Origin: Acidimicrobiales bacterium
Lineage (GTDB): Bacteria; Actinomycetota; Acidimicrobiia; Acidimicrobiales; AC-9
Assembly (NCBI GenBank): GCA_036270875.1
Contig: DATBBR010000106.1
Span: 1-33,777 of the forward strand
Length of the DNA stretch: 33,777 nucleotides
Direction: 5' to 3'
The notes beneath the pieces were generated by a model. It ran no database searches and was not told the DNA's origin. It was given only the letters and a program-made list of their open reading frames with translations. Shown piece after piece: positions 23,528 to 32,670 of this stretch (positions within the stretch are counted from its first letter, which is position 1; each line of letters starts with the position of its first letter). A program made the translations under genes and the position numbers.

Positions 23528-25815
23528 GCCTCGCCCGACTCCTCGCGGAGCGTGTGCGCTGCTTCCACCATGTTGCGGAGGCTGGCCCGGGTCTCGTCCC
23601 ATCCCCTCGTCTTCAGACCGCAGTCCGGGTTGACCCACAGCCGCTCGGCCCCGAGACGCTTGACGGCGGCTCGGATCTCATCGGCCATCTCCCCCGCCGA
23701 GGGCACGCGAGGCGAGTGGATGTCCCACACGCCGGGGCCCACCTCGCGGGCGTAGCCGTGACCGCGCAGGTCGTCGAGCAACCGCATCCCCGCCCGAGCG
23801 CACCACAGAAGGGCCACGTCGGCATCCAGCTCGTCGATGGCCTCCACGATGTCGCCGAACTCCGAGTAGCAGACGTGGGTCTGGAGAAGGGTGTCGTCGC
23901 TCGCTCCCGAAGTGGCCAGGCGAAAGCATTCGACGGCCCATGCCAGATACTCCGGCCACGCCTCCCGGCGCGCCGGCAGGCCCTCGCGAAGCGCAGCCTC
24001 GTCGACCTGGATCACCCTCACGCCCGCGTCCTCGAGGTCGGCGATCTCGTCCCGCACAGCCAGGGCCAGCTGCCTACAGGTGTCGGCCAGCGGCTGGTCG
24101 TCGCGGACGAACGACCACAGGAGCATCGTCACCGGACCGGTGAGCATCCCCTTGACTGGCCGCTCCGTGAGCGACTGGGCGTAGGCGGTCCACCGCAGCG
24201 TCATGGGACCCGATCGCTTCACGTCGCCGTACAGAATCGGCGGGCGCACGTACCGGCTCCCGTACGACTGGACCCACCCGTTCTCGGTGGAGCTGTAACC
24301 GTCGATCTGCTCGGCGAAGTACTGCACCATGTCGTTGCGCTCCGGCTCGCCGTGCACCAGCACGTCCAGCCCCGCCTCCTCCTGGAACCGGATGACTCCC
24401 TCGATGGCGTCCTGCATCTGTCGTTCGTAGGCCTCGTCGCTCAACTCGCCCCGTCGGTGGGCAGCGCGGGCGCGGCGGACCTCGCGGGTCTGGGGGAACG
24501 ACCCGATCGTCGTCGTGGGGAACGTCGGAAGGCCGAGGATGCGCCGCTGACGCTCACGGCGGCTCGGGTAGTCACCGGCGCGCCGCTCGCTGCCCGTCAG
24601 CGAAGCCAACCGTTCGCGGACTCCCGCGTCGACCGTCCGAGGTGAGGTTCGGCGACTGCGCAGGGCCTCTTCGTTGGCGGCCAGCTCGGTTGCGATCGCC
24701 TCGACCCCGCGATCGAGGCCACGGGCCAGGAGGACCACCTCGCGTACCTTCTGCCGGGCGAAGGCGAGCCACGAGAGAATCTCGGCGTCGAGCCTCGTCT
24801 CGGCCTCGAGGTCGACCGGAACGTGCTGGAGCGAGCACGAGGTCGATACCACGACGTCGCCGGCCCGTTCCTGAAGCCGGCGCATGAGGTCGATGCTGGC
24901 GCCGAGGTCGTTGATCCACACGCCGCGGCCGTCGACGACACCGGCGAACAGCGTCTTGTCGCCGAGGCCACCACGCTCGCCGATGAGCTCGGCGTTGGCC
25001 GCGCCCCGGACGAAGTCGAGGCCGATGCCCTCGACCGGAAGCCCGCTCAGAACCGGGTACGCCCCACCGACGTCGCCGAAATAGGTCTTGACGACGATGC
25101 TCGGTCGCCCACTCACATCTGCCAGCCGGCGGTAGGCGCCCTGCAGCGCCCCGAGCTCGGCCGGCGACCGATCGCCCACGAGCACCGGCTCGTCCAGCTG
25201 GACCCACCGGGCGCCCTGGGCGCCGAGGCGAGCGAGAACCTGCCCGTACACCTCGACCAGCCGTTCGACCAGGGCCAGCCGATCGAGCTCACCGCCACCC
25301 GGAGATCTGGCCAGCACCGCCATGGTGAGCGGCCCGACGAGCACGGGCACCGTGTCGATGCCGAGGGCGACGGCCTCTCCGTGCTCGTCGAACGGCTTGC
25401 TGCTCGACAGTCCGATCTCGGTGTCGGTGGACAGCTCCGGGACGATGTAGTGGTAGTTCGAGTCGAACCACTTCGTCATCTCCGTGGCGATGGCGTCGAC
25501 GCCCGCCGACTGCCGGCCACGGGCCATGGCGAAGTAGGTGTCGAGCTCCACGGCGCCTGCGGTGCGGCCGTAGCGGGGCGGCACCGCACCGACGAGGGCG
25601 ATGGTGTCGAGGACCTGGTCGTAGAGCGAGAAGTCGTTCGAGGGAACCAGGTCGACGCCGGCGTCCCGCATGAAGAGCCAGTTGCGGCGCCGGATGTCCT
25701 GGGCCACCCGGCGCAGCTCATCCTCGCTCACCTCGCCGTTCCAGTAGCGCTCGGTGGCCACCTTCAGCTCGCGGTGGTCCCCGATGCGGGGGAACCCGGA
25801 GACGTTGGAGAGCAT
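23524..25815 (-). CDS. metE: cobalamin-independent methionine synthase, zinc site altered
   Basis: A 763-residue enzyme that transfers a methyl group from 5-methyl-tetrahydropteroyltri-glutamate to homocysteine. The N-terminal barrel begins [20 protein letters not shown]. The catalytic barrel includes [62 protein letters not shown] (zinc His and Cys) and [13 protein letters not shown] (zinc Cys). The expected glutamate ligand (Glu665 in E. coli, within ITIETSRSDM) is Trp671 here, in [10 protein letters not shown], with a Cys next to it. Neither other frame at this spot supplies the glutamate. All other landmarks are intact. ATG at 25815, 9 nt behind a TAGGGT box. No cobalamin riboswitch fits in the 45-bp upstream gap. 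Confidence 0.93.
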
Positions 25816-25824
25816 TACCGGCTC

Positions 25825-25851
25825 ACCCTACCGGCGCGGGTCCGATACGGT
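25825..25851. promoter_or_regulatory. divergent -10 boxes between metE and the liv fusion
   Basis: TAGGGT (minus strand, 25830-25825) ends 9 nt before the metE ATG and TACGGT (plus strand, 25846-25851) ends 9 nt before the transporter ATG. The symmetric boxes are 15 bp apart in a 45-bp gap, so the two promoters would compete for polymerase. Confidence 0.45.
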
Positions 25852-25860
25852 GACCGGCGC

Positions 25861-28800
25861 ATGTCACGCACCGGCGATCCGGGGCTGACCTGGCGGCCAC
25901 CGGCCGTTCTGGACCACCCCGCTGTCCGGGCGGGGGCGTCGACCGTCGGCGCCGCGCTCGTCCTGGTGGCGGTCTTTCACTTCCTGCTCCCTCGTCAGGT
26001 GCCCTACGGGATCCTGCTCTACGGACTCGTGACGGGGTCGACGTACAGCCTGATCGCCATCGGCCTGATCCTCGTCTACCGGGCCAACCGGATCATCAAC
26101 TTCGCCCTGGCCGAGATCGGTGTGTTCGGCGCCGTGCTGTTCGAGAACCTCATCAGGGCGTCGGGTTGGCCGTGGGCGGCGGCGCTGGTGGTGGGGGTCC
26201 TCACCGCCGCTGCGGCCGGGCTGGTCCTCGAGCTGGGTCTCGCACGGCGCTTCTTCACCTCGTCGCGACTCGTGCTGAGCGTGGCGACGATCGGCATGGC
26301 CCAGCTCCTCGCCTTCGGCGAGTACGCCGTAGGGCAGGCGTTCGCCGGAAGTCCCGCATCGGCGGGGCTGCGGACGCCGCTCTCCGACCTGCACTTCCGG
26401 GTCACCGGTGTGGTGTTCGACGGCAACACCGTGCTGCTGATTGCCGCCGTTCCCTTCGTGGCCGTTGCCCTCGGGGCGTTCCTTCGTCGAACCGACCTGG
26501 GCGTCGCCACGCGAGCCTCGGCCGAGAACACCGAGCGGGCAGCGCTGCTCGGTATCCCCGTGCGCCGGCTCGCCACGCTGGCGTGGGTCCTGGCCGCGCT
26601 CCTCGCCGGGCTGGCCACGGTGCTGCGCTCACCCGTGGTGGGCATCGTCTCCGGCAGCACCCTGCAAGGGCCGACCCTCTTGCTGCGGGCGCTGACCGTA
26701 GCCGTCCTGGCCCGCTTCGAGGACGTCCGCGTCGCCATCGTGGCCGGACTTGCGGTCGGCGCCATCGAGCAGGGCCTGTACTACGCCTACGGCGGGTCCA
26801 CCGTCTCCGACGTGGTGTTCGTGGGCCTCATCATCGCGGCGCTGCTCCTGCAGGGCCGCCGGCGCGAGCGGTCGGAACATTCCCAGGCGACCAGCTGGGA
26901 GGCGATCGACAACGTGCGCCCCCTGGCCACCTGGCAGCGCCGGCTGCCCGCGGTGCGATGGGGGCGGCTCGCCGTATGGGCGGCGGTGGCCGCGGTCGTG
27001 GTGACCGTGCCAACAGCCCTGACCCCGAGCCGCGTGTTTCTCGCTTCCGATGTGCTCGTGTTCGCCATGGTGGCGGTGTCGTTGGTCGTGGTCACGGGCT
27101 GGAGCGGCCACATCAGCCTCGGCCAGTTCGGTCTGGTCGCCATCGGGGCGGCCGTGGCAGCCCGGCTCAGCGCCGACCTCCACTGGGACTTCCTGCTGGC
27201 CCTGGTCCTCGGCGGCGGTGCCGGTGCGGTGGTGTCGATGCTGCTCGGCGCGGCGGCGTTCCGGATCAGGGGCTTCCTGTTCGCCGTCACGAGCCTGGGC
27301 TTCGCCGTGGCGGTGGGGTCCTTCTTTCTCAACGCCCGGTTCTTCCCCTACCTGCTGCCCACCCATCGGCCCGAGCGACCAGTGCTGTTCGGCCGCTTCG
27401 ACCTCAACGGCGAGCTGGCCTACTTCTACTTCAGCCTCGCCGTGCTGGTCCTGCTCGTCCTCGCTGCCGCGGTGCTCCGCCGCACCCGCACGGGGCGGGT
27501 ACTCATCGCCATGCGGGACAACGACCGGGCCGCCCGCTCGTTCGGGATCAGCCGCGTCAGCAGTCAGCTGATGGCGTTCGCCGTGTCCGGCTTCGTGGCG
27601 GGTGTCGCGGGCGGGGTCCTCGCCGCCCACGATCACGCCGTCTCTGTGTCGGCGTTCTCGCCCGCGGCCAGCATCGCCGTCTTCTCGATGGCGGTCATCG
27701 GAGGCGTCGGCTCGCTCCTCGGAGCCGTGCTCGGTGCCGTGGTCGTGCGAGGGGCCACCCTCTCGCTCACGGCACAGTGGGCGCAGTTGGCCACCGGCCT
27801 GGGGCTGCTGCTCGTGCTCCTCGTGCTCCCTGGTGGCCTCGGCCGCGCCGTGTTCTCGGCACGCGACGCCCTGATCCGCCGTCTCGGGGGAGGACCAGCT
27901 CTTCATCCGCTGCCCGCGTTCGAGCGCGACGAGCCGCCGGAACCTCCTGCCGCCGCGCCAACCGTGACGGCGCCGCCGGCACCGACCAGCGGACGGCCGG
28001 TGCTGGTGTGCCGCAGCCTCGATGCGTCGTTCGGCCCCGTGCAGATCCTCTTCGGCGTCGACCTCGAGGTGGCCGAGGGCGAGATGCTCGCCCTCCTCGG
28101 GACCAACGGCGCGGGCAAGTCCACGCTGCTGCGGACTGTGGCCGGAGCCGTCCCCGTCACCGGCGGTGCGGTCGTCTTCCACGGCGAGGACATCACCCGA
28201 ACCCCCCCTGAGCGCACCTCGGGCATGGGGATCGTCACCGTCCCGGGTGGCCGGGGCACGTTTCCCGGGCTGAGTGTGGCCGAGAACCTGCGCGTCGCCG
28301 GCTGGCTCCATCGGCGCGACCCGGACCACCTCACCCGCAGCCTGGCCCAGGCGCTGGAGCTCTTCCCCGTCTTGGCCGAGCGCCTGTCGCAGACCGCGGG
28401 CACGTTGTCAGGAGGCGAGCAGCAGATGCTCACCCTGGCCCAGGCCCTCATGGCCCGTCCGACGCTGTTGATGATCGACGAGCTGTCCCTGGGTCTGGCG
28501 CCGGCGGTAGTCGAACAGCTCGTCCAGACGCTGCGCCTCATCCACGCCCGAGGTACGACGGTGATCGTGGTGGAGCAGTCGATCAACGTCGCCCTCACGA
28601 TCTGCGACCGGGCCGTCTTCCTCGAGCGGGGTCGGGTCCGGTTCGACGGGCCCACTGCCGCGCTGGTGGAGCGCCCCGACCTGTTGCGGGCGGTGTTCCT
28701 CGACGTGCCGACCGCGAAGGCAGACATCGCCCCGGCCCGCGCGCAAGCGCTGGCCACCTCGTCCGTGGGCGACGTCGCGCTAGAGGGCCGGGCCCTCTCG

Positions 28801-29613
28801 AAGAACTACGGCGGTATACGGGCCGTCGGCGACCTGAGCCTGGCCGTGCACGACGCCGAGATCCTCGGCCTCATCGGTCCCAACGGCGCCGGAAAGACCA
28901 CCGTGTTCGATCTGTTGAGCGGGTTCACCCCACCCGACAGCGGAAGGGTGCTGATGGGCGGGGTGGACATCACCAGCTGGAGCCCCGAGCGACGAGCTCG
29001 GGAAGGCATGGGCCGCTCGTTCCAATCGGCCCGGTTGTTCCCAGCCCTCACCGTGCGCGAGACGGTGGCCGTGGCGTCCGACCGTCACCTCGACGTTCGT
29101 GATCCATTGTCGAGCGTCCTCGCGCTGCCCGTGGCCCGGGACGCCGAACGGGCTATGTGGTCGCGAGTCGACGAGCTGCTCGAGCTCACCGGGCTGGTCG
29201 CCTTCGCCGACTCGCTCCTCTCGGAGCTGTCGACCGGCACCCGACGCATCGTCGACATCGCCTGCGGCCTGGCCGCGGGACCTCGCGTGCTGCTTCTCGA
29301 CGAGCCGGCGACGGGCATCTCCCTCCACGAGACCGAGCGCTTGGGACCGCTCCTCCGCTGGCTGCGCGACACCACCGGGACGGCGCTGCTCCTGGTGGAG
29401 CACGAGCTCGGCCTGGTGTCGGAGGTCGCCGACCGCCTCGTCGCCATGGAGGCCGGCTCCGTCGTCGCCTCTGGTCCCCCGGCGGAGGTCGTCGCCCACC
29501 CGCGCGTCGTCGCGTCCTATCTCGGCACCGAGCGCTCCGTCGACACCACTCCGGAGTCGGCGGCTCGGTCACTACTCGGCTCGACCGACCCGCACATCAG
29601 GGGCGACGAGTGA
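25861..29613 (+). CDS. four-domain Liv-type ABC transporter (LivH-LivM-LivF-LivG in one chain)
   Basis: A 1250-residue protein joining all membrane and ATPase parts of a branched-chain-amino-acid-type importer. Residues about 25-330 are a LivH-like permease (GLVTGSTYSLIAIGLILVYR). About 365-680 are a LivM-like permease (GWSGHISLGQFGLVAIGA). About 715-945 are a LivF-like ATPase (Walker A GTNGAGKST at about 747, LSGGEQQM at about 849, LLMIDELSLGLAP). About 965-1235 are a LivG-like ATPase (GPNGAGKTT at about 1006, signature LSTGTRR at about 1123, LLLLDEPATG). Normally these are four genes. One chain per transporter gives fixed stoichiometry. The ATG at 25861 is chosen because everything upstream in this frame is antisense to metE. 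The substrate-binding protein gene overlaps its stop by 4 bp. Substrate unknown. Confidence 0.93.
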   Translation: MSRTGDPGLTWRPPAVLDHPAVRAGASTVGAALVLVAVFHFLLPRQVPYGILLYGLVTGSTYSLIAIGLILVYRANRIINFALAEIGVFGAVLFENLIRASGWPWAAALVVGVLTAAAAGLVLELGLARRFFTSSRLVLSVATIGMAQLLAFGEYAVGQAFAGSPASAGLRTPLSDLHFRVTGVVFDGNTVLLIAAVPFVAVALGAFLRRTDLGVATRASAENTERAALLGIPVRRLATLAWVLAALLAGLATVLRSPVVGIVSGSTLQGPTLLLRALTVAVLARFEDVRVAIVAGLAVGAIEQGLYYAYGGSTVSDVVFVGLIIAALLLQGRRRERSEHSQATSWEAIDNVRPLATWQRRLPAVRWGRLAVWAAVAAVVVTVPTALTPSRVFLASDVLVFAMVAVSLVVVTGWSGHISLGQFGLVAIGAAVAARLSADLHWDFLLALVLGGGAGAVVSMLLGAAAFRIRGFLFAVTSLGFAVAVGSFFLNARFFPYLLPTHRPERPVLFGRFDLNGELAYFYFSLAVLVLLVLAAAVLRRTRTGRVLIAMRDNDRAARSFGISRVSSQLMAFAVSGFVAGVAGGVLAAHDHAVSVSAFSPAASIAVFSMAVIGGVGSLLGAVLGAVVVRGATLSLTAQWAQLATGLGLLLVLLVLPGGLGRAVFSARDALIRRLGGGPALHPLPAFERDEPPEPPAAAPTVTAPPAPTSGRPVLVCRSLDASFGPVQILFGVDLEVAEGEMLALLGTNGAGKSTLLRTVAGAVPVTGGAVVFHGEDITRTPPERTSGMGIVTVPGGRGTFPGLSVAENLRVAGWLHRRDPDHLTRSLAQALELFPVLAERLSQTAGTLSGGEQQMLTLAQALMARPTLLMIDELSLGLAPAVVEQLVQTLRLIHARGTTVIVVEQSINVALTICDRAVFLERGRVRFDGPTAALVERPDLLRAVFLDVPTAKADIAPARAQALATSSVGDVALEGRALSKNYGGIRAVGDLSLAVHDAEILGLIGPNGAGKTTVFDLLSGFTPPDSGRVLMGGVDITSWSPERRAREGMGRSFQSARLFPALTVRETVAVASDRHLDVRDPLSSVLALPVARDAERAMWSRVDELLELTGLVAFADSLLSELSTGTRRIVDIACGLAAGPRVLLLDEPATGISLHETERLGPLLRWLRDTTGTALLLVEHELGLVSEVADRLVAMEAGSVVASGPPAEVVAHPRVVASYLGTERSVDTTPESAARSLLGSTDPHIRGDE

Positions 29614-31249: not shown

Positions 31250-31561
31250 TCAAGCCGCCCCCCGCCCGTAGCGCGTCATGACCCGCCACTCCGTCGTCCT
31301 CGCGAGTCGGCCGGCCCGATACGTCCCGCGACTGACGCGCGCGACCCGACCCCGCCCGTGCTCGTACGCGAGCGCGTCGGCGAGGGCCTTGCGGGGATCG
31401 GAACCGAGGACCCGCCAACCCCTGACCTCGATGCCCGTGAGAACCTCTGCCACCGTCAGCGGCCTGCCGGCGAGCACGAGCACGGCCATCGCCGCCTGCC
31501 GGAGGTTATGGCCGCGAAGGTCTCTCGACCCCGCCTGCCAGTAGGGCACCGAGCTCAGCAT
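31250..31561 (-). CDS. winged-helix (HARE-HTH-like) protein
   Basis: A 103-residue basic protein. The middle (LRQAAMAVLVLAGRPLTVAE, VLTGIEVRGWRVL, DPRKALADALAYE, GRVARVSRGTYRAG) follows the HARE-HTH/winged-helix pattern found in restriction enzymes, RNA polymerase delta subunit and chromatin factors, which bind DNA or proteins. The ATG at 31561 is preferred because TACGGT lies 6 nt upstream. The frame continues open to 31978, but that part only translates the palindromic repeats. It is divergent from the HAD gene across those repeats, making it a candidate to bind them (inference). Confidence 0.65.
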   Translation of the reverse strand: MLSSVPYWQAGSRDLRGHNLRQAAMAVLVLAGRPLTVAEVLTGIEVRGWRVLGSDPRKALADALAYEHGRGRVARVSRGTYRAGRLARTTEWRVMTRYGRGAA

Positions 31562-31567
31562 GTGCCG

Positions 31568-31573
31568 ACCGTA
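31568..31573 (-). promoter_or_regulatory. -10 box (TACGGT) of leaderless winged-helix gene
   Basis: On the minus strand TACGGT ends 6 nt before the ATG at 31561, with no ribosome-binding site between. Repeat unit 1 begins 43 bp upstream of this box. Confidence 0.5.
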
Positions 31574-31616
31574 TCGCCGGGGTGTATCGGTTGGTCTCCT
31601 CGCGCACACTCCTCCC

Positions 31617-31674
31617 GTTCCACCTTTGGTCGATAGCAGCTCCGTGCTGCCCGCTTGTCGACGCCATGTGGAAC
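31617..31674. repeat. palindromic repeat unit 1 (58 bp)
   Basis: Outer arms GTTCCAC and GTGGAAC are exact inverses. After 5 nt on each side come inner arms GTCGATAG and TTGTCGAC (imperfect). The spacer is 18 nt, 12 shorter than in units 2 and 3. A short motif, GTCCGCACCTGCGG, follows 7 bp after the unit. Confidence 0.85.
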
Positions 31675-31731
31675 AACTGCGTCCGCACCTGCGGTGCCGG
31701 CCCGGTTGGCCGGTCCTTCCGCCGTCCTCGT

Positions 31732-31801
31732 ATTCCACATCTGGTCGAAAGGGGCGTCGCGTACCACCAGCAACCCGCCCTCTTTCGACGTGTTGTGGAA
31801 C
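31732..31801. repeat. palindromic repeat unit 2 (70 bp)
   Basis: Outer arms ATTCCAC and GTGGAAC (one mismatch), 5-nt interruptions, perfect inner arms GTCGAAAG and CTTTCGAC and a 30-nt spacer. The stem extends into the spacer with GGGCG (31752-31756) paired to CGCCC (31776-31780). GTCCGCCGCCTGCGG, similar to the motif after unit 1, follows 17 bp downstream. Confidence 0.9.
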
Positions 31802-31870
31802 ACGAGCGTGGACCCGCGTCCGCCGCCTGCGGGGATGCACAAGAGTTAGCCCGACCTTCCACGTCGGCTC

Positions 31871-31940
31871 GTTCCATATGTGGTCGAAAGCAGCGCCTCG
31901 CAGGGCCAGCGACGCGCCCCCTTTCGACGAGAGGTGGAAC
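31871..31940. repeat. palindromic repeat unit 3 (70 bp)
   Basis: Outer arms GTTCCAT and GTGGAAC (one mismatch), 5-nt interruptions, perfect inner arms GTCGAAAG and CTTTCGAC, 30-nt spacer: the same dimensions as unit 2. The right outer arm covers the expected -35 position of the HAD-gene promoter. Confidence 0.9.
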
Positions 31941-31959
31941 GGATGCAACTCCCCGCCGC

Positions 31960-31971: not shown

Positions 31972-32670
31972 GTGCCAAGGCTGCGAGCGGTGCTCTTCGA
32001 CTTCGGCGATACCTTGTTCGGCCGGACGGGTGCCCACCGAGCCATCGTCCAGGCCGCTCAGAGCCTCGGGGTGCAGGTCGATGACAGCACGGCCCGGAAG
32101 CTGTGGGCCGAGATCCAGGAGCGAGCCAGCACCCCGGAGGAGCTGTCCAAGGGCCGAGACCTCTCCCCCGAGGCCCACCGGGCGTGCTGGACCGCCCTCT
32201 ACTCGCGTCTCGATGTCCTCGTCGGCGGGCTCAGCGAGGCGATGTACGAGCGCGAGAGCAGCCCGTTCGGCTGGGAGCCGTTCTCAGACGCCGAGACCAC
32301 TCTGCGAGGTCTGCGCTCGGCCGGCGTGCCTGTCGGCGTGGTGAGCGACACCGGCTGGGACATCCGCCCGGTGTTCGCCGCCCACGGCCTCGACCAACTG
32401 GTCGACGTGTTCGTCCTGTCGTGCGAGCACGGTGTGGCCAAGCCGGCACCGCGACTGTTCGAGGCCGCGTGTGACGCGCTTCGGGTGGCTCGGCCGGCGA
32501 CGCTGATGGTTGGCGACAACCCGCTGACCGACGGCGGCGGCGTCCGAGCCGGACTGCCCGTGTACCTCCTCCCTCCGGCCGATGACAACCGCGACCGCGG
32601 TCTCGACGCCGTCCTGAGCCTGATGGGCGTGGCGGCGGCCACCGCCGACTCCCGGCCCTCGGCCTCGTGA
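31972..32670 (+). CDS. HAD-superfamily hydrolase
   Basis: A 232-residue soluble phosphatase-type protein. Motif I is AVLFDFGDTL (nucleophile Asp; the usual second Asp is shifted, a variant frequent in this superfamily). A helical cap region follows (about 30-95). Motif II is GVVSDTGW, motif III Lys is in GVAKPAPRLFEAA and motif IV is MVGDNPLTDGGGVRAG. Members dephosphorylate small metabolites; the substrate cannot be told from sequence. The last 15 residues are Ala/Ser-rich. GTG start with a -10 box 6 nt upstream. It is convergent with mscR (1-bp gap). Confidence 0.85.
   Translation: MPRLRAVLFDFGDTLFGRTGAHRAIVQAAQSLGVQVDDSTARKLWAEIQERASTPEELSKGRDLSPEAHRACWTALYSRLDVLVGGLSEAMYERESSPFGWEPFSDAETTLRGLRSAGVPVGVVSDTGWDIRPVFAAHGLDQLVDVFVLSCEHGVAKPAPRLFEAACDALRVARPATLMVGDNPLTDGGGVRAGLPVYLLPPADDNRDRGLDAVLSLMGVAAATADSRPSAS

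Follow-up and report, generated by a model that had tools for sequence, protein, structure and literature searches.

What are the three palindromes with nearly identical arms that lie between two divergent genes of an Acidimicrobiales bacterium, a soil actinobacterium, and does anything encoded beside them account for their form and number? The window analyzed here is a stretch of 33,777 nucleotides. A sequence-only reading had placed three palindromic units in it and offered a folded RNA with a symmetric internal loop, a protein-binding array, or a mobile REP- or MITE-like element as possible identities.

Architecture and helical spacing of the array

The features of the locus are listed below. 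The coordinates and lengths of the three units between divergent genes are as first described.

31617-31674 (58 bp): palindromic unit 1; half-sites 31617-31636 (+) and 31655-31674 (-); 18-nt spacer
31732-31801 (70 bp): palindromic unit 2; half-sites 31732-31751 (+) and 31782-31801 (-); 30-nt spacer
31871-31940 (70 bp): palindromic unit 3; half-sites 31871-31890 (+) and 31921-31940 (-); 30-nt spacer
31250-31561, minus strand: HARE-HTH winged-helix gene, 103 aa; proposed cognate DNA-binding protein, with the array directly upstream
31568-31588, minus strand: promoter-like stretch of the HARE-HTH gene, GATACACC-N7/8-TACGGT, a consensus reading only
~31972-32670 (start 31972 or 31990), plus strand: HAD-family hydrolase gene (Pfam PF00702, E 2.9e-15)
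31269-31950: block missing in the sister species G002, comprising the HARE-HTH gene and all three units (syntenic-locus comparison)

Gaps of 57 bp and 69 bp separate unit 1 from unit 2 and unit 2 from unit 3. The HAD-family hydrolase gene is the divergent neighbor; it is kept in G002 without the units and gave no sign of belonging to a palindrome/HARE-HTH system. Elsewhere in the window, one long open reading frame (24823-29613) apparently fuses two branched-chain amino-acid permease domains and two ATPase domains; its true start is probably further downstream, and a substrate-binding protein gene follows it.

Units were compared in the window's own genome (G000, 3.0 Mb) and in two sister species of the same genus (G001 and G002). 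Each unit consists of two inverted 20-bp half-sites, GTTCCAC[C/A/G]TYTG-GTCGAAAG, and the conserved blocks of the half-site, GTTCCAC and GTCGAAAG, lie about one helical turn apart. Across 93 units from the three genomes, conservation of the half-site is strong at positions 1-7 and 13-20, T occupies position 9 almost without exception, and the left and right sides match at position 8 in 80 units and at position 9 in 85. The sequence-only reading had treated the five bases between the arm blocks as an unpaired loop. Positions 8 and 9 are conserved and pair between the arms, leaving only positions 10-12 loose, so that each unit is an imperfect inverted repeat with 20-bp arms. The base at position 8 differs by species: C in G000 (62/70 half-sites), A in G001 (93/98), and mostly G in G002 (10/18). 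This one-base, genome-wide switch of the site between sister species suggests either co-evolution with a binding protein or homogenization.

The arms at orthologous sites are 92% identical compared to 64% for the spacers, and the 30-nt spacers tend to start with TGGGCG and end with CGCCCA. Left-right compensatory change is small, with permutation z values from -0.7 to 2.0 over all 20 arm positions. The outward flank consensus of the units is [AC]GGAG.A; a T-run was sought in it and was absent, and a simple terminator was rejected on this ground. An Rfam search of the units returned two sub-threshold matches only (mir-2968 and ftsZ-DE).

The spacers are not arbitrary, and their lengths prove to be quantized. 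The 93 units have spacers of 9 nt (2 units), 18-19 nt (14 units), or 28-31 nt (77 units) with none between; the 30-nt spacer occurs in 63 units, and the remainder depart from it in steps of about one helical turn. Gaps between tandem units measure 57, 67-69 (ten cases), or 78-80 bp. Both series step by about 10.5 bp, which corresponds to complete helical turns of the DNA. The 14 short-spacer loci match this grid without exception, an outcome with a chance of about 7e-9 under a uniform model. A hairpin has no need of helical quantization, and proteins lined up on one face of double-stranded DNA would; combined with the little compensatory change, the spacing points to double-stranded DNA carrying protein on one face rather than to a folded RNA. 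The protein-binding array, one of the three proposals, gains support from the spacing of spacers and gaps, the conserved primary sequence, and the link to a winged-helix gene. The RNA with a symmetric internal loop is not supported, since compensation is weak at best, part of the supposed loop is conserved and paired, and no Rfam family matches the units.

Distribution and turnover of the palindrome family

The half-site GTTCCACNNNNNGTCGAAAG occurs 80 times in G000 (≤2 mismatches) compared to 8 times for a reversed-pattern control, which puts the units far beyond chance. At ≤1 mismatch there are 122 half-sites in G001 and 24 in G002, and the order's other families give counts close to background. 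The palindrome family is dispersed and genus-restricted. A scan for exact arms over 84,980 species, a set that leaves out near relatives, matched a single genome, the soil Actinobacteria metagenome-assembled genome VAWP01. The exact unit was sought in viral contigs and not found; a phage origin is not supported and was rejected. The pattern GTTYCAC-N5-GTCGAAA gave 9, 7, and 7 matches in G018, G054, and G008, slightly above the control, and these may be real or due to chance.

The G000 copies occupy about 40 loci, nearly all intergenic. The sequence-only reading had set many intergenic copies against copies only beside winged-helix/HAD homologues; the outcome combines the two, with copies at many intergenic sites and also beside every close winged-helix homologue. 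Roughly 90 loci from the three genomes, none longer than 16 kb, were examined with genes called by a home-made codon model. The clusters are 44 codirectional, 31 convergent, and 7 divergent, with 6 overlapping a predicted gene and 4 at a contig edge. The bias against divergent promoters is strong (p=1e-4), and most copies in the window genus sit at 3' ends of genes or in convergent gaps. The window array and L070 are truly divergent and were counted as codirectional because the crude gene caller missed the HARE-HTH genes. Contigs C87, C102, and C109 of G000 and C34 of G001 end inside or within ~100 bp of a unit, so the assemblies break at the palindromes. At L063 (3836-4293 on G000:C50), two facing half-sites are 418 bp apart and a small lipoprotein-like open reading frame takes the place of the spacer.

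Comparison of orthologous sites reveals turnover. Absent from both other species are 13 of the 27 callable units of G001 and 9 of the 28 callable units of G000, and G002 has one private unit (L139); the contrast in private units alone, with G002 entered by hand as 1/9, is not significant (p=0.14). The empty sites at these loci are short, and together with the lineage-specific units they indicate that copies have been gained; the intergenic flanks are too diverged for a target-site duplication to be read at them. Five G001 units (L095, L099, L102, L117, and L126) have spacers that are 90-100% identical. The flanks of L095, L102, and L117 are wholly different despite the near-identical units, and L099 and L126 have one flank in common because both are in tandem arrays. 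Near-identical spacers within different flanks mean that copying or conversion acts on the unit itself. The mobile, REP-like proposal is supported on three counts: the ~40 intergenic loci, the lineage-specific gains with empty sites, and the near-identical copies at unrelated loci.

The HARE-HTH gene beside the repeats

The 103-aa protein belongs to the HARE-HTH family (Pfam PF05066, E 1.1e-6, 29.4 bits against a gathering cut-off of 25.9), and an NCBIfam search gave it no name. Its AlphaFold2 model is a winged helix with a mean pLDDT of 86.7. Foldseek returned weak matches only, with winged-helix DNA-binding proteins among them; one is a weak resemblance to the Rok DNA-binding domain (5zuz), and one HARE-HTH homologue scores against PF23159, the Rok winged helix, at E 5.7e-4. 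The genus has four close HARE-HTH genes, a pair each in G000 and G001, and units lie directly upstream of all four, although the cases are not independent because the two paralogues may have inherited the array by duplication.

G002 is the nearer of the two sister species to G000 by protein identity and has lost both HARE-HTH genes. Gene 1 and all units of the window locus are gone from G002 as one block, and at the second locus only one half-site remains, fused to the last codons of gene 2 (a 3' remnant). A profile search of G002 found no intact HARE-HTH copy. The units of G002 are few and eroding, and several have a broken partner. Fourteen ancestral units were ascertained in G001; 12 of them are kept in G000 and 5 are intact in G002 (p=0.018). 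This comparison concerns a single natural loss, and its significance is gone (p=0.38) when partial and weak traces in G002 are counted as retained. On this sequence evidence the adjacent HARE-HTH protein is the best candidate partner of the units and would be the protein that binds them.

The pairing of gene and palindrome recurs in other bacterial families with a different spelling. Remote homologues in G004, G012, G041, and G045 have an upstream palindrome, CGAWTCG-N4-CGAWTCG, which again consists of two blocks one helical turn apart. Among the 59 genomes searched, exact copies number 107 in G041, 15 in G004, 10 in G012, and 5 in G045, and the 49 genomes without a HARE-HTH gene have ≤3 copies each. 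A control pattern gave zero in all genomes but one. The association of the motif with the HARE-HTH gene outside the window genus is significant (Fisher p=1.8e-4). G041 encodes five HARE-HTH homologues; the 11-bp spacing dominates among its CGAWTCG copies, which lie in divergent and convergent gaps and in a few coding regions. A candidate site for a G041 homologue is as follows.

CGAATCGACGTCGATTCG: palindrome sequence; candidate site for a G041 homologue

Thirteen of the 15 listed places in G004 fall within 90 kb around its HARE-HTH gene (G004:C1:1260626-1349268, gene at 1324877), clustered rather than spread. G005, G015, G048, and G058 have a homologue and no 11-bp-spaced CGAWTCG family; in G005, G015, and G058 the gene has other repeats next to it. 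At the homologue loci L147, L150, and L153, the adjoining sequences are a 12-bp CCGAATCG tandem within an inverted repeat for the G015 homologue, three 47-bp tandem repeats for that of G058, and copies of TCGCTGTGCAAGCGAAAGCG for that of G005. In several families the HARE-HTH genes are preceded by a promoter-like motif, in which TAnnnT or GATnnT comes ~8 bp after GTCACACC or GATACACC; it lies just downstream of the palindromes at window 31568-31588, L145, L148, L151, L154, L155, L156, and L163. Its spacing resembles that of the PafBC DNA-damage promoter motif.

Candidate explanations and known systems

We favor the reading, at a probability of roughly 0.58, that the adjacent HARE-HTH protein binds the units, as double-stranded DNA sites dispersed through the genome, and that they form a REP-like population that depends on this protein. 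With inverted half-sites separated by complete helical turns, every contact would fall on the same face of the DNA, and HARE-HTH molecules could then meet both within a unit and from one tandem unit to the next. The array beside the gene itself would most likely serve in autoregulation, as an operator located upstream of the promoter. The remaining ~40 copies, which are mainly 3'-proximal and in convergent gaps, would be the REP-like population, gaining copies, partly homogenized, and presumably kept only while the HARE-HTH protein is present. The protein has no catalytic or nuclease domain, and thus the copying is not explained by the protein alone. A further-reaching version is tentative: this small protein without a nuclease would both sustain and drive the spread of its own palindromes, the helix-phased site sequence would have evolved separately in each family, and copying would proceed through host recombination or replication instead of a transposase.

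The same copying can be read in a way that makes the adjacent gene incidental, with the units being an ordinary REP/REPIN- or MITE-like selfish element whose transposase was not found or has been lost. This idea fits the dispersal outside genes, the paired inverted half-sites with their fixed spacer, the gains confined to single lineages where other species have empty sites, and the near-identical units at unrelated loci whose flanks have diverged. We consider it doubtful because no RAYT/Y1 transposase scores above the Pfam cut-off in the three genomes, the spacers are quantized, the arms show little compensation, and the HARE-HTH link recurs with unrelated palindromes in other families. An autonomous MITE version, in which the same ends or facing half-sites enclose a transposase, was not seen in the ~90 loci of ≤16 kb, which come from draft genomes with contig breaks inside units. 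If the copies were instead HARE-HTH operators selected gene by gene, as in a transcription-factor regulon of non-mobile DNA, the conserved arms at orthologous sites, the erosion after loss of the regulator, and several divergent-promoter placements in G041 would follow. Such a regulon is improbable given the 31 convergent clusters against only 7 divergent ones in the window genus, a distribution unusual for a transcription-factor regulon that also counts against the binding-site part of the favored reading. Point mutation also does not produce whole 70-bp units that are gained in one species and share identical spacers at unrelated loci. Folded-RNA elements or hairpin terminators at the 3' ends of genes would explain the long self-complementary units and their location close to stop codons and in gaps between convergent genes. 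We regard them as very improbable in view of the weak left-right covariation, a flank consensus without a T-run, a conserved primary sequence with its species-specific position 8 and helical quantization, the arrays in the HARE-HTH promoter region, and the lack of a meaningful Rfam match.

The RAYT transposase is the known explanation for dispersed palindromes in bacteria, and the candidate partner here is much simpler, a lone winged-helix domain that in several bacterial families recurs next to palindrome families of differing spelling. These data suggest a partnership of protein and repeat unlike the known transposase-driven ones. G002 serves as a natural knock-out in which the sites decay, and the persistence and spread of short repeats without a transposase become testable. 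A standalone bacterial HARE-HTH protein gains a concrete candidate target. The difference at position 8 between sister species, which extends across nearly the whole genome, would be a clean case of protein-DNA co-evolution.

Integron attC sites are among the closest known elements. Their end boxes are RYYYAAC/GTTRRRY and their copies stand in cassette arrays. The units have a comparable 7-5-8 box geometry and variable central part, but they end in GTTCCAC/GTGGAAC, which misfits the attC boxes, and are dispersed between ordinary genes; attC was rejected on the end boxes. The units are not attC sites, terminators, or a known RNA.

The units also resemble REPs and REPINs in distribution and doublet form: many dispersed extragenic palindromes (80 half-sites at ~40 loci), inverted doublets with a spacer of fixed length, and a linked chromosomal gene with vertical inheritance and copying (PMC3116915, PMC8266576). 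Compensatory changes are reported to be common in REPINs (PMC3116915), whereas the units show few of them in the stem. The units also differ in having spacers that step by helical turns and, as partner, a 103-aa HARE-HTH winged helix without a nuclease in place of a Y1 transposase, which was not found. The RAYT profile (Y1_Tnp, PF01797) gave nothing above cut-off in G000, G001, and G002 while the positive controls matched, and a GTAG/CGTC tag was sought in the unit flank consensus and was absent. Lacking RAYT, the GTAG tag, and compensatory changes, the units were not filed as REP/REPIN.

The window protein is a HARE-HTH member by sequence, above the Pfam cut-off, with a predicted winged helix. 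The domain has been proposed to read modified bases and is often fused to nucleases (PMC11037411, PMC10853773); a link between HARE-HTH and dispersed palindromes is absent from these two open-access papers, and a search of the open-access literature for this kind of repeat in Acidimicrobiia found nothing. As for organization on a chromosomal scale, MatP-matS, Noc, and Rok-like systems are site-specific nucleoid- or chromosome-organizing proteins, small winged-helix or other DNA-binding, with many dispersed sites. The HARE-HTH protein resembles them in being a small DNA-binding protein with many dispersed candidate sites, and given the Rok match of one homologue a nucleoid-organizing role is possible. 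It differs from them in that its candidate sites are paired palindromes that gain copies. There is a real chance that the units and the HARE-HTH protein constitute a new class.
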